Source of the DNA: Marinihelvus fidelis
Lineage (GTDB): Bacteria; Pseudomonadota; Gammaproteobacteria; Xanthomonadales; SZUA-36
Direction: 5' to 3'
Assembly (NCBI RefSeq): GCF_008725655.1
Contig: NZ_VYXP01000004.1
Coordinates: 237,346 to 301,345 of the forward strand
DNA length: 64,000 nt
The first letter of the stretch is position 1. Each line of letters starts with the position of its first letter. Under the pieces are notes generated by a model. It did no database searches. It saw only the letters and a list, made by a program, of their open reading frames with translations, and was not told the DNA's origin. Of the stretch, positions 26,915 to 50,696 are shown in pieces. Made by a program: the position numbers and the translations under genes.

Positions 26915-27591
26915 TGCGCCCGGCCCCGCGCCAGGCGCCGGGGCATCCGCTGGTCTGGCGGGGCGGCCAACGCCAACACGCGCTGCCTGTCCTGCCCAGC
27001 GGGCACCCGGTTCTGGATCAACACCTGCCGGGCGGCGGCTGGCCGGTCGGCGCGCTGACCGAATTACGCCCAGCCCGGCCCGGGCTCGGTGAGTTCTGGC
27101 TGCTATTGCCGTTGCTCGCACGGGTCACCCACGGTGGCGGCTGGGCCATCCTGGTCAACCCGCCCTGGATCCCCTACCCGCCGGCACTGCGCGGCCATGG
27201 CATCGAGCTGAAGCGCCTGCTGCGGGTACAGACCGGCGGCGCCGCGGATACCCTGTGGGCCTGCGAGCAGGCCCTGCGGGGCGCGCGGGGCGGCACGGTC
27301 CTGGCCTGGGCAGGCGACGACCGCCGCCAGGGTGCATTCAGCCAGCTGCGGCGCCTGCAACTGGCCGCGCGTGACGGCCACAAGCCGGCCTTCCTGTTTG
27401 CCGCGCCCGGCGACGCGTCGCGGGCCACGCCCGCGGCCCTGTGCCTGGGCCTGGACGCCGGCAAGCGTGGCCTGGAGATCCGGCTGCTGAAATGCCGTGG
27501 CCACCGCCCCGCACAGCCCATCCACCTGCGCCGCCCGCACGATGACGACGCCATCATGATGGCCACGCCAATCCCCACCGGTCATGCCTGA
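26914..27591 (+). CDS. imuA: ImuA (SulA/RecA-like translesion-synthesis accessory protein)
   Basis: ImuA works with ImuB and DnaE2 in damage-induced mutagenesis. The 225-residue protein has the family core PSGHPVLDQHLPGGGWPVGA, which resembles RecA but lacks an intact P-loop, and LLRVQTGGAADTLWACEQAL followed by VLAWAGDD. Start ATG 26914 shares a base with the lexA stop and the gene overlaps imuB by 8 bases, so lexA-imuA-imuB should be one transcript. Confidence 0.9.
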   Translation: MRPAPRQAPGHPLVWRGGQRQHALPVLPSGHPVLDQHLPGGGWPVGALTELRPARPGLGEFWLLLPLLARVTHGGGWAILVNPPWIPYPPALRGHGIELKRLLRVQTGGAADTLWACEQALRGARGGTVLAWAGDDRRQGAFSQLRRLQLAARDGHKPAFLFAAPGDASRATPAALCLGLDAGKRGLEIRLLKCRGHRPAQPIHLRRPHDDDAIMMATPIPTGHA

Positions 27592-29005
27592 AGCCTGGCT
27601 GGCGGTATGGCTGCCACGCCTGGCGCTCGACCTGGTAACCCGCGCTGGCCAGCCGGCCGTCACCGCCATGGCGATCACCGAGGCCCACCGGGGGCGCGCG
27701 GTCATCGTTGACATGAACGACCCGGCCGCCGGCCACGGCGTGCGCCCCGGCATGCCGGTGACGGCGGCGCTCGGGCTCTGCGGCGAGCTGGTGCTACGTG
27801 AACGCAACCTTGCGGCGGAGGAACAGGCCCTGCAGCGCCTGGCCGCCTGGGCCTACCAGTACAGCAGCCGCGTCTCGGTTGGCGACGGCGAGCACGTGCT
27901 GTACCTGGAGGCCGGCGCCAGCCAGCGCCTGTTCGGCGCCGCGGCCGCCCTGGCCTCGCGCCTGGCGGATGAACTGGCCGCGCTGGGCTACCAGGCCCGA
28001 ACCGGCACGGCGCCCACGCCCGCTGCCGCCCGCCTGGCCGCGCGCCTGGGCCAGGACATCGCGGACCGCGAGCAACTGGAGCAGTGCCTGGCGCGCCTGC
28101 CGCTGGAGCAACTCGACCTGTCATCCACCGAGCGCCGCTCATTGTTGCGCATGGGGTTTCGCACCACCGGCGAAATCCTGGGCCTGCCACGGGCGGAACT
28201 GGCCCGCCGCCTCGACCCGCCGCTGCTGGCGCGGCTCGACCGCCTGCGCGGGTTACGGCCCGACCCCCGCCCGGCCTGGCATCCCTCTGCGCACTACCGG
28301 GCCCACCTGGACCTGGCCGCCGAGGTCCACCAGGCCCAGGGTCTGCTGTTTCCGCTGCAACGCATGGTGCAGGAACTCTGCGGCGTGCTGCGCGGCGGCG
28401 ACCAGGGCATCCAGCAACTGGACATCAGGCTGGCCCTGCGCAAGGGCCGGCACCGCTTCAGCCTGGGCCTGCAATCGCCGGGGCGCGACGAGGCCCGCAT
28501 GGTCAGCCTGCTGCGGGAGCGGCTGGAGCACCTGCGCCTGCCGTCCCCGGCGCTGGCCATCGACCTGCATGTCGCCCGGCTGCTGCCCTTCGAGGCCCCG
28601 GCCGGCGACCTGTTTGGCCAGGCCGCGGATGACGAGGCCGGTGACAGCCTGCGCACCGTGCTCGAACGCCTGGGCGCGCGGCTGGGCGATGCGGCCATCA
28701 CCGGCCTGGGGGGCGTCGAGGAACACCGCCCGGAGTACAGCTGGACCCAGCCGCCACCGGGCGAAGACAGCCCCTGCCCCGCGCTGCCGCATCGTCCCAC
28801 CTGGCTATGCCAGCCGCCGCGCCGCTGCGATGTCGGCCAGTACCGGGTGCTGGCTGGCCCGGAGCGGATCGAGGCCGGCTGGTGGGATGGCCATGACTGC
28901 CGGCGCGATTACTACGTCATGCGCGACCCGGACGGCGCCACCGTGTGGGTCTACCGGGAGTTCAAGCCGGCCCCCGGCTGGTACCTGCAGGGCATCTTCG
29001 GATAG
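27584..29005 (+). CDS. imuB: ImuB, inactive Y-family polymerase homologue
   Basis: ImuB is a DinB-like protein that bridges DnaE2 and the beta clamp. The 473-residue product is recognisably Y-family (RPGMPVTAALGLCGELVLRE; helix-hairpin-helix region LLRMGFRTTGEILGLPRAEL). The acidic metal ligands of true Y polymerases are not preserved: the first strand reads WLAVWLPRLALDLV and the SIDE motif position reads VGDGEHVLYLEAGAS. This is the ImuB condition rather than damage to the gene. It is third in the lexA operon. Confidence 0.9.
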   Translation: MPEAWLAVWLPRLALDLVTRAGQPAVTAMAITEAHRGRAVIVDMNDPAAGHGVRPGMPVTAALGLCGELVLRERNLAAEEQALQRLAAWAYQYSSRVSVGDGEHVLYLEAGASQRLFGAAAALASRLADELAALGYQARTGTAPTPAAARLAARLGQDIADREQLEQCLARLPLEQLDLSSTERRSLLRMGFRTTGEILGLPRAELARRLDPPLLARLDRLRGLRPDPRPAWHPSAHYRAHLDLAAEVHQAQGLLFPLQRMVQELCGVLRGGDQGIQQLDIRLALRKGRHRFSLGLQSPGRDEARMVSLLRERLEHLRLPSPALAIDLHVARLLPFEAPAGDLFGQAADDEAGDSLRTVLERLGARLGDAAITGLGGVEEHRPEYSWTQPPPGEDSPCPALPHRPTWLCQPPRRCDVGQYRVLAGPERIEAGWWDGHDCRRDYYVMRDPDGATVWVYREFKPAPGWYLQGIFG

Positions 29006-34182: not shown

Positions 34183-34200
34183 CTATTGACCCTTCAGCCC

Positions 34201-37326
<3,126 letters not shown>

Positions 37327-47467: not shown

Positions 47468-48160
47468 TCAGGAAGATGGATATCTTTCTTCAGCCAGTTT
47501 AACGACTGCATGCACCACTTCTTCGATGCTCATCGCGGTCGAATCGATGGTGACTGCGTCGGGCGCCGGTTTTAACGGCGCGACGTCGCGCTGGGTGTCC
47601 CGCCGGTCGCGGGCTTCCAGGTCCCCGAAAAGGCGCGAGAGATTAACACTTTCCCCTTTTTCTTTCAACTGCTTATATCGCCTTTCGGCGCGGGCCTGGA
47701 CATTGGCGGTCAGAAAGATCTTCAGTTTCGCGTCGGGGAAGATGACGGTGCCCATGTCGCGTCCGTCGGCCACCAGGCCCGGCGCCTGCCTGAACGCCCG
47801 CTGCCGCTTCTCCAGTGCATCCCGGACCGCGCCGACGGACGCCACCCGCGATGCCAGGGTACTGACCGCTTCTTCGCGAATCGCGCCGGTAACCTCGCGG
47901 CCCTGCAGGAAAATCCGCAGCGCGCCCTGCTCGAACCGGAACACCGCATCCAGTTCCGCCGCCAGGCGCTCAAGCGCGGCCTCGTCTTCGGCCGCCACGC
48001 CCCCGTCCATCGCTGACAGCGCCACCAGCCGGTAGAGCGCACCGCTGTCGAGCAGGTGCCAGCCCAGGCGCTCCGCCAGTCGCGCGGCGATCGTGCCCTT
48101 GCCGGACCCGACCGGGCCGTCAATGGTGATCACCGGGATGGCGTCCGCCGGATTTTTCAT
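47468..48160 (-). CDS. cmk: Cytidylate kinase
   Basis: Cmk phosphorylates CMP and dCMP. The 230-residue protein has the P-loop [19 protein letters not shown] near the start, [16 protein letters not shown], and the nucleotide-site [20 protein letters not shown]. Start ATG 48160 overlaps the aroA stop (ATGA). Confidence 0.96.
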
Positions 48161-49464
48161 CCGTCGCGGCGCTCCAGCTGGGCACCGATGCTGAGCATGT
48201 CGGCGCTGAAGCCCGGGTAAGACGTATCGATGTAGTCCGCGCCATCGATCAGCACGCCCTCCTCGATCAACTGCCCCAGCACGGCAAAGCTCATCGCGCA
48301 ACGGTGGTCGTTCTCCGCCTCGACACGCGCCGGGCAGGGTTCACCGCCAAACACGTCGACGCCGTCGGGGCGCTCTGACAGTTCGATGCCCATGCACTCC
48401 AGGCCCCGCGCCATGACCGCCAGTCGGTCGGATTCCTTGACTCGCAACTCGGCCGCGTCGGTGACCCGCGTGCGGCCCTGGGCCGTTGCGGCCAGTGCCA
48501 TCAGGATGGGAATCTCGTCGATCATGGCGGGCACCCATTCCGGCGGCAGGTCGATGCCCTTCAGGCGGCCGTTGTAGCGCACCCGCAGGTCACCCACCGG
48601 CTCCAGGCCGTCGGAGCCATCGTTGACGGTCTCGATGTCGATGCGGCCGCCCATGGCCTTCACGGCGTCAAAAAATGCCGACCGCGTGGGGTTCAGGCCG
48701 ACATTGCGCAGGGTCACGTCCGACCCCGGCACCAGCGACGCCACGGCGACCAGGAAGGCCGCGGACGAGGGGTCCGACGGAACCAGGACCTTCGCACCGG
48801 TGAGCCCCTGCGGGCCCTGCAGCGCGGCGCCCTCGCCCATGCGAACGCCAAACAGCGGCAGCATGCGCTCGGTGTGGTCACGGCTCAGGCGCGGCTCGGT
48901 GACGCGGCTCTCACCCTGGGCGAACAGGCCGGCCAGGAGCACACAGCTCTTGATCTGCGCGCTGGCCACCGGCGAGTCGTAGTGAATGCCCTTCAGCGCC
49001 GGATTGCCATGAATGTGCAGCGGCGCGGTTCCGGCTTCCGTGGCCTCCACGTTCGCGCCCATCTGCGCCAGCGGCGTCATGATGCGGCGCATCGGCCGGC
49101 TGTTCAGTGACGCGTCGCCCGTGAGCACGGAATCGAATGACTGTGCGGCGAGCACGCCCGCGAGCAGGCGCATGGCGGTGCCCGAGTTGCCCATGTCCAG
49201 TGGCGCCGACGGCGCCGACAGGCCGGCCTGTCCCAGGCCGCGAATGCGCAGCACGTCACCCTCATCGGTCACGCTGGCGCCCAGCTGGACCATCGCGTTG
49301 CGTGTCGCGGTGGTGTCGGCGCTGACCAGCAGGCCCTCGACCACGGTTTCGCCGTCGGCCAGGCCGCCAAAGATCAGCGCGCGGTGTGAAATGGACTTGT
49401 CGCCCGGCGGTGTCAGCGTTCCTGCCAACGGCGCCGTGGCTTTCTTAGCGTAAAGCGGCATCAT
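48157..49464 (-). CDS. aroA: EPSP synthase
   Basis: AroA adds PEP to shikimate-3-phosphate. The 435-residue protein shows [20 protein letters not shown], the [16 protein letters not shown] motif, [15 protein letters not shown] and [14 protein letters not shown]. It begins at ATG 49464 or the next ATG at 49461. Its first 20 bases overlap the end of the hisC remnant in another frame. Confidence 0.96.
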
Positions 49465-49582
49465 GCTCCCTGCCCTGTCTGATCGCCCTTTCCAGGCGTT
49501 GGTTCTGCGTCGCCGTGCTCACGGTGACGCGCAAATGATTCGGTAATCCGTAAGTGCCCACCGGCTCAGGACGCTTTCTCAT
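49445..49582 (-). pseudogene. hisC: C-terminal remnant of histidinol-phosphate aminotransferase (hisC)
   Basis: Between pheA and aroA a second minus-strand frame (ATG 49582 to TAA 49445, 45 codons) reads RPEPVGTYGLPNHLRVTV followed by STATQNQRLERAI. This is the conserved HisC C-terminus (RPxxxYGLPxHLRVTxGTxxENxRFxxAL), including the substrate-binding Arg of HLRVT. The rest of the roughly 350-codon gene is gone. In pseudomonads hisC lies exactly here, between pheA and (tyrA-)aroA, so this is most simply the 3' end left by an internal deletion. It overlaps the last codons of pheA and the first of aroA. Whether the short frame is translated is unknown. Confidence 0.8.
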
Positions 49583-50696
49583 TGCCAGCCTGGATTCGTG
49601 ACGTCACCGCCCGCGGGTACGACCCCAGCAACCGGACTTCGCCGCCCACCTTCTCCATTTCCGCCATCGCGGTGCTCAGCGGCGCCTCGTCGGCATGGCC
49701 ATCGACATCGATGAAAAAGACGTAAGACCACTTGCGCCCGGGCGCCGGGCGGGACTCGATGCGTGACATGTTCAGGCCATGCGTGGCCAGCGGCGCCAGC
49801 AGGGCGTGCAGCAGCCCGGGCCCCTCGTCGCCGGTGAGCAGGAACGAGGTCTTGTCATCGCCGGACGGCGAGAACCGCTCGCGACCAATGACCAGGAAGC
49901 GCGTGGTGTTGTCCTGCTGGTCCTCGATGTTCGAGAACAGGGCCGGAATGCCGTAAATCTCCGCGGCGGTCAGGCTGGCGATGGCGGCCGCTTCCGGCGC
50001 GCTGCGTACCCGTCGCGCGGCCTCGGCGTTACTGCTGACCGGCAGCAGTTCCACCCCCGGCAGGTTGCGCCGCAGCCACTCGCGACACTGCGACAGTGAT
50101 TGCTGGTGCGCGTAAACACGCTCGATACCCGACAGGCCATTGGCATGGGTCAGCAGGTTGTGATGAATGCGCAGTTCGATCTCGCCACAGATGTGCAGCG
50201 GCGAGTCGATGAACAGGTCCAGGGTATGGGTCACCACGCCCTGGGTGGAATTCTCAATGGGCACGACGCCGAAATCGGCCTCGCCGCCCTGCACCTGCTC
50301 GAACACGTTCTCGATCCCGGCCTGGCCCATGGCCAGCACCGAGTGCCCGAAGTGTGTGTAAACCGCCTGCTGCGTGAATGTGCCTTCCGGGCCCAGGTAG
50401 GCCACCCGCATGGGCTCCTGGCGGGCCAGGCAGGCGGACATGATTTCGCGGAACAGGCGCAGGATTTCCGAGTCGCTTAGCGGGCCCTGGTTGCGCTCGA
50501 GCACGCCGCGCAGCACCTGCGCCTCGCGCTCGGGGCGATAGTAGTCGGCCGCGGGCAACTGCTCACCCTTGGTTTGCGCGACCTCGAAGGCGAGTTTCGC
50601 GCGTTCACTGATCAGGCGCTGGATGTCGACATCAAGCGCATCAATCCGCGCGCGCACGTCGGCCAGCCGCTTGTCCGTGTCGCTCATGTCTGGCAC
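49566..50696 (-). CDS. pheA: Chorismate mutase / prephenate dehydratase (P-protein)
   Basis: PheA makes phenylpyruvate from chorismate. The 376-residue protein has a chorismate mutase domain (about 8-90, VRARIDALDVDIQRLISERA), a prephenate dehydratase domain (about 95-275, RVAYLGPEGTFTQQA, IENSTQGVV and the TRF motif in DNTTRFLVIG) and an ACT domain with GLLHALLAPLATHGLNMSR and ESRP for Phe feedback. ATG 50696 or 50687 can start it. Its usual partner serC is absent upstream, where purF lies instead. Confidence 0.95.
   Translation of the reverse strand: MPDMSDTDKRLADVRARIDALDVDIQRLISERAKLAFEVAQTKGEQLPAADYYRPEREAQVLRGVLERNQGPLSDSEILRLFREIMSACLARQEPMRVAYLGPEGTFTQQAVYTHFGHSVLAMGQAGIENVFEQVQGGEADFGVVPIENSTQGVVTHTLDLFIDSPLHICGEIELRIHHNLLTHANGLSGIERVYAHQQSLSQCREWLRRNLPGVELLPVSSNAEAARRVRSAPEAAAIASLTAAEIYGIPALFSNIEDQQDNTTRFLVIGRERFSPSGDDKTSFLLTGDEGPGLLHALLAPLATHGLNMSRIESRPAPGRKWSYVFFIDVDGHADEAPLSTAMAEMEKVGGEVRLLGSYPRAVTSRIQAGNEKAS

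Follow-up and report, generated by a model that had tools for sequence, protein, structure and literature searches.

Deletion of hisC between pheA and aroA and its probable connection to an acquired TyrB-type aminotransferase

A 45-codon open frame between pheA and aroA is, in our judgement, the 3' leftover of an operonic hisC2 gene that underwent a deletion of about 1 kb, with an acquired TyrB/AspC-type enzyme most likely having made HisC2 redundant (probability roughly 0.85). We use hisC2, equivalent to hisHb, for the aminotransferase gene of the pheA-hisC-aroA unit. The frame had been noted in a sequence-only reading of the window, a 64,000-nucleotide stretch of Marinihelvus fidelis (genome G000), and was compared with the five other genomes of the genus (G001-G005, G001 being the nearest), with the family and with the order. 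The analysis showed the deletion, relaxed evolution of the remnant, a surviving second hisC and a foreign-looking TyrB-type gene found only in G000 within the genus. It also showed that, in genomes of the order, the two enzymes rarely occur together. We infer that the TyrB-type enzyme and HisC2 perform the same aromatic transamination, and that the gain of the former preceded the loss of the latter.

Results

The frame between pheA and aroA retains the end of hisC

The genes on the minus strand follow the order pheA (50696-49566), the 45-codon frame (49582-49445) and aroA. The features of the region are as follows.

49445-49582, minus strand: 45-codon open frame with the hisC remnant, starting with ATG (read from the sequence and compared with relatives)
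49445-49564, minus strand: hisC residue, namely the final 40 codons with the stop counted (aligned codon by codon to G001 hisC without gaps)
49564-49582, minus strand: deletion junction zone, which on its left derives from the pheA tail or from what is left of the hisC start
49566-50696, minus strand: pheA (chorismate mutase / prephenate dehydratase / ACT; PF01817, PF00800, PF01842)
48157-49461, minus strand: aroA (EPSP synthase), with the start that matches G001 at the second ATG, 49461, and the first ATG at 49464

The claim that the frame encodes a HisC C-terminus held up against the nearest relative. G001 carries a complete 385-codon hisC between pheA and aroA, and the last 40 codons of that gene, stop included, align to the residue without gaps, with 74% amino-acid identity over 39 residues; the stop codon is TAA in the residue and TGA in G001. 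The match to G001 hisC had an E value of 2.3e-16 in a search of 30 loci and of 1.4e-14 in a whole-genome search, and the residue matched the hisC ends of all five other genus members. When a profile of 33 intact hisC ends was run against the 23 hisC-less pheA-aroA loci of the family, it found the residue in the window's own locus (E 1.2e-13) and gave no hit better than E 1.1 in the other 22. A protein search against HisC succeeded with near relatives (E 2.3e-16) but, contrary to what the sequence-only reading led one to expect, failed with general libraries: the 45 residues matched no Pfam family, no NCBIfam HisC model (one unrelated match, E 0.04) and no sequence in the PDB. The HisC identification rests on near relatives and position. 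The frame falls short of a full-length HisC (TIGR01141), with 40 of 386 codons (stop included) remaining relative to G001 and no HisC model hit. On homology and position, we regard the frame at 49445-49582 as confirmed to be a real hisC remnant.

The nearest named record was the MAG contig CAJXKA010000001 (uncultured Oceanospirillales bacterium), with further matches named Wenzhouxiangella, Lysobacterales and Gammaproteobacteria, among others. Elsewhere in the window, we take the plus-strand genes at 27584-29005 and 34186-37326 to be ImuB-like and DnaE2-like, respectively, and the opposite-strand genes between them presumably serve pantothenate and coenzyme A synthesis.

About 1 kb of hisC is missing

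In each of the five other genus members, an entire hisC separates pheA from aroA (a contig end truncates pheA in G003), which is the place that the sequence-only reading gave for hisC in related operons. The spacer from pheA to aroA measured 1118-1163 bases in four of these genomes and 102 bases in G000, indicating that about 1 kb of hisC was deleted. On the minus strand, a single base separates the pheA stop codon (49566-49568) from the start of HisC homology at 49564, and the hisC tail and the aroA start share 17 or 20 bases, depending on the ATG. With the full gene at the same place in sister genomes, these data support a hisC deletion scar between pheA and aroA and agree with the proposal of a deletion end point. 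Among the six genus genomes, the deletion is confined to the G000 lineage.

The left side of the junction allows either of two readings: the deletion may extend into the pheA tail, or it may be internal to hisC and in frame, with the native hisC start codon retained. The left flank finds its best local match in the G001 hisC start, which would favour the second reading, but the match is not significant, since 212 of 1000 shuffled sequences scored equally.

Loss of operonic hisC tends to coincide with a TyrB-type enzyme

Among 39 family genomes, operonic hisC is kept in 10 and absent from 24; the other five (G006, G025, G030, G032 and G062) were unscored at the locus. Its presence changes four times on a PheA tree, with three of the changes forced by well-supported branches, and these changes are separate losses if hisC was never regained at the same spot. 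No smaller remnants were found in the other hisC-less loci (22 in the family and 24 further genomes), where a well-decayed one would escape detection. The pheA-aroA spacer of G007 measures 274 bases and holds no hisC residue; on visual inspection its ends resemble an inverted repeat, which might mark a small mobile element. TyrA (PF02153) was weak or missing in many of the 61 relatives searched.

A search for another hisC, as the sequence-only reading had suggested, found one. G000 has one HisC-model hit over the cut-off, beside other his genes, and G001-G005 have two each. We take the neighbours of the remaining G000 gene to be hisG, hisD, hisB, hisH, hisA, hisF and hisI by recognition, with only hisC checked against a library. 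This second gene is an argument for ordinary loss of a redundant paralogue, in which the other HisC already covered for HisC2 and TyrB played no part; the repeated hisHb losses in other lineages that the available text of PMC1173090 describes would also fit. We nevertheless consider this explanation unlikely. The other HisC does not explain which genomes lose HisC2, because G001-G005 have a second HisC over the cut-off and yet keep HisC2, and the presence of a TyrB-type enzyme predicts the loss better.

The TyrB-type enzyme was scored with NF006719, an aromatic aminotransferase model of the AspC/TyrB type that, to our knowledge, does not separate AspC from TyrB. Within the family, the model was found in none of the 10 genomes with operonic hisC and in 20 of the 24 without it; the matches in G036 and G061 are fragments below the model cut-off. 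Within the genus, G000 alone (1/6) has the enzyme. Four family genomes (G009, G019, G028 and G029) have neither operonic hisC nor a TyrB-type enzyme, and three of the four are less than 90% complete.

The same pattern extended to 250 genomes of the order, with 119 carrying HisC2 only, 94 TyrB only, 13 both and 24 neither (Fisher 4e-31, uncorrected for kinship); genome incompleteness may account for some of the absences. This count sets aside, after inspection, six HisC rows of 37-42% identity (G010, G020, G023, G053, G069 and G174); with them included, there are 121 genomes with HisC2 only, 90 with TyrB only, 17 with both and 22 with neither. The HisC hits counted are mostly operonic: all 16 checked for position adjoin aroA, and 13 of them also adjoin pheA; in G041, the hit lies about 50 kb from pheA. 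The two enzymes do not exclude each other strictly, given the 13 genomes with both enzymes and the 24 with neither, which include four family genomes read as hisC-less. Most of the 24 are listed without a genus, and further variable genera may therefore exist. Within genera g1, g40 and g66, the genomes listed alternate between the two enzymes, having HisC2 where TyrB is absent and the reverse. Genus g8 is variable too, with G030 (60% complete) having neither. G172, which has a TyrB-type enzyme and no operonic hisC, has a pheA (G172:C3:57673-58658) that looks broken: the match is split in two, and three stops interrupt the second part.

Taking kinship into account, a PheA tree built from 36 genomes, 32 of them in the family, yielded 3 independent contrasts, which were opposite in 2.8 cases on average and never parallel; this less selected set has too few contrasts to reach significance (median P 0.25). 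A tree of 74 of the 250 order genomes gave 10 contrasts, 8-9 of them opposite and none parallel, and the remaining 1-2 showed no difference (sign test 0.004-0.008); the selection of these genomes followed the availability of pheA loci and in part the trait itself (most have one enzyme), a choice that favours opposite pairs. Twelve of the 13 genomes with both enzymes belong to genus g51 and one to g78 (G249), and the three that are present in the 74-genome tree form one clade. Possibly, the both-enzyme genomes represent an intermediate state.

The tyrB-type gene of G000 looks foreign

The gene lies within a variable stretch of 5.7 kb (G000:C4:216555-222299).

G000:C4:221010-222203: tyrB-type gene of G000, about 65 kb from the scar

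The same interval spans 0.1 kb in G004, 0.9 kb in G002, 4.2 kb in G005 and 5.8 kb in G001, and no tyrB was found between those flanking genes in any of these four relatives. The G000 stretch presumably also holds an IS3-type transposase and small toxin-antitoxin-like genes, and we take its flanks to be, on one side, a 151-codon gene that adjoins a GCS2/CBS-type gene and, on the other, an Lhr-type helicase, all named by recognition.

We compared 31 TyrB proteins drawn from the 107 genomes with TyrB. Among the 30 others, the only close relative of the G000 protein is that of G017, which belongs to another genus of the family and also lacks operonic hisC. The two proteins are 87% identical, and their DNA is 86.7% identical over 1,266 bases, compared with 67.5% identity for PheA and 58% for AroA between the same genomes; both TyrBs are 38-45% identical to the other 29. 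The surroundings of the two genes differ, with no further match in the compared stretches of 14.0 and 5.8 kb. A search for a plasmid donor returned 282 matching plasmid records, all below 60% identity. Together, these comparisons make the G000 tyrB look foreign in origin. In the PDB, the best 60 of 80 relatives of the protein carry the names of aspartate or aromatic aminotransferases, apart from one designed protein; the substrate is inferred from pathway logic.

The remnant evolves without constraint on a peptide

In codon comparison with G001 (stop codon omitted), the residue differs by 10 replacement and 2 silent changes. The corresponding counts between the same two genomes were 45:110 in pheA (Fisher versus residue 3e-4) and 94:128 in aroA (7e-3), and five pairs of intact hisC ends, hand-picked from 45 pairs, gave 11:38 (1.7e-4). 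Differences were spread evenly over the codon positions, at 7, 8 and 6 of 40 for positions 1, 2 and 3. Within the first 32 codons, 11 changes fell on the G000 lineage, 2 on that of G001 and 4 were ambiguous. The residue has lost an N that is kept in 32 of 33 intact hisC genes and a G that is kept in all 33; at conserved columns, 27 of the 33 intact ends show no departure, 4 show one and 2 show two. Judged by its codon changes, the residue is a relic that shows no selection on its peptide.

One observation is not what plain decay predicts. Of the first 30 codons, 21 encode a shared residue, and a silent difference occurs in 1 of these 21, versus 0.354 in the neighbours (P 0.001), and a second count gave 2 of 29 (P 4e-4), both being post hoc tests. 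We considered slow silent change as a general trait of hisC ends and rejected it, since tails in close intact pairs are often somewhat slower than the rest of the gene but not always. As intact tails of close pairs are often slow too, the low silent value in the residue is only suggestive.

The sequence-only reading had offered recent loss as one explanation for the clean frame, and chance plus limited time does suffice. Only 10 of 351 possible single changes in the frame create a stop, and in simulated decay the probability of no stop was about 0.7 at 16 substitutions, indels not counted; the probability of no indel was 0.2-0.45, assuming 0.05-0.1 indels per substitution. With so few stop-making changes and about 70% of simulated decays free of stops, the open frame needs no function.

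The end of the remnant overlaps the start region of aroA

The ribosome-binding site of aroA falls inside the residue.

49465-49472, minus strand: aroA ribosome-binding site CAGGGAGC, within the hisC residue and unchanged in G001

Its predicted pairing with the anti-Shine-Dalgarno sequence is -7.8 kcal/mol in both G000 and G001. The last ~30 bases of the residue persist because they hold this site and the aroA start, and constraint from overlapping genes, another explanation that had been put forward, applies to those bases. A broader version of this idea is that the hisC end was kept as a DNA or RNA control element of aroA, either as its translation start region or as a reinitiation leader from pheA, with selection thereby setting the bounds of the deletion. 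We hold this to be unlikely; were it true, the few silent differences in the residue would be its trace. A 27-base run identical to G001 was rejected as a conserved element, since pheA and aroA have runs of 30 and 29 bases.

It has also been suggested that the frame is translated as a leader or coupling peptide, selected so that ribosomes from pheA reach aroA. The frame is open, starts inside pheA and overlaps the aroA start, its own start may be the old hisC start, and its silent sites differ less than those of the flanks. However, the 10:2 ratio of replacement to silent changes indicates that peptide constraint is gone, and the ATG of the frame has a weak ribosome-binding site (-3.7 kcal/mol), whereas aroA has a strong site of its own. 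Scans of the region for promoter and terminator patterns and for Rfam families were negative, and its RNA fold was not unusual (z 0.26). No hisC residue was found in 22 of the 23 hisC-less family loci or in another 24 genomes lacking operonic hisC, namely G061 from the family and 23 from other parts of the order, and a frame in which so few single changes make a stop easily stays open. A selected coupling peptide is therefore very unlikely.

Least credible is an assembly artefact, in which hisC dropped out of the contig through a collapsed or chimeric join: the residue carries its own changes at the two positions conserved in 32 and 33 of the 33 intact genes, changes are in excess on the G000 lineage, and no other HisC2 sequence was found in the G000 genome (98.9% complete, 17 contigs), where the next best matches are at most 32% identical.

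Discussion

We propose that a TyrB/AspC-type aminotransferase gene entered the G000 lineage and that the acquired enzyme would have taken over aromatic transamination, leaving the operonic HisC2 dispensable. About 1 kb of hisC2 would then have been deleted, with a 40-codon 3' end remaining. This residue makes no enzyme and drifts without visible peptide constraint, and its last ~30 bases were probably kept for the ribosome-binding site and start of aroA.

The available text of PMC1173090 describes a supraoperon, pheA-hisHb-tyrA-aroF, in which HisHb is a broad aromatic aminotransferase. According to that text, hisHb was lost repeatedly, in Burkholderia, some Pseudomonas and Xylella/Xanthomonas, with serC-pheA-aroF left in the last of these (PMC1173090), and an entry in its Table 6 has hisHb replaced by an aspC duplicate linked with three ORFs. 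The gene neighbourhood is the same as ours, aroF there corresponding to aroA here, but the supraoperon includes tyrA and the G000 unit does not. Going by these parts of PMC1173090, the G000 case is a further instance of hisHb replacement by an AspC-type enzyme. The same parts describe no sequence scar for the losses and no count of HisHb versus TyrB across genomes, whereas G000 has a scar.

The case resembles non-orthologous gene displacement in that a genome which lost the old gene has an enzyme of another lineage, apparently suited to that step. Since the TyrB-type enzyme and the remaining HisC of G000 both match Pfam Aminotran_1_2, the displacing enzyme would be a distant homologue. It likewise resembles a truncated pseudogene or deletion scar, with a short 3' piece at the old place evolving unconstrained; unlike a typical truncated pseudogene, the end of the residue stays useful as the aroA start region. 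Literature searches found no account of the G000 hisC remnant, which does not disprove that one exists. As far as these searches show, the readable scar and the order-wide count are new.

The readable scar fixes one step of a gene swap that is otherwise seen only as presence or absence. Because the acquired enzyme, the deleted gene and the intact sisters are all known, the idea that an incoming TyrB releases the operonic HisC can be put to the test, and elsewhere in the order there are repeats of this swap together with a clade that still has both enzymes.
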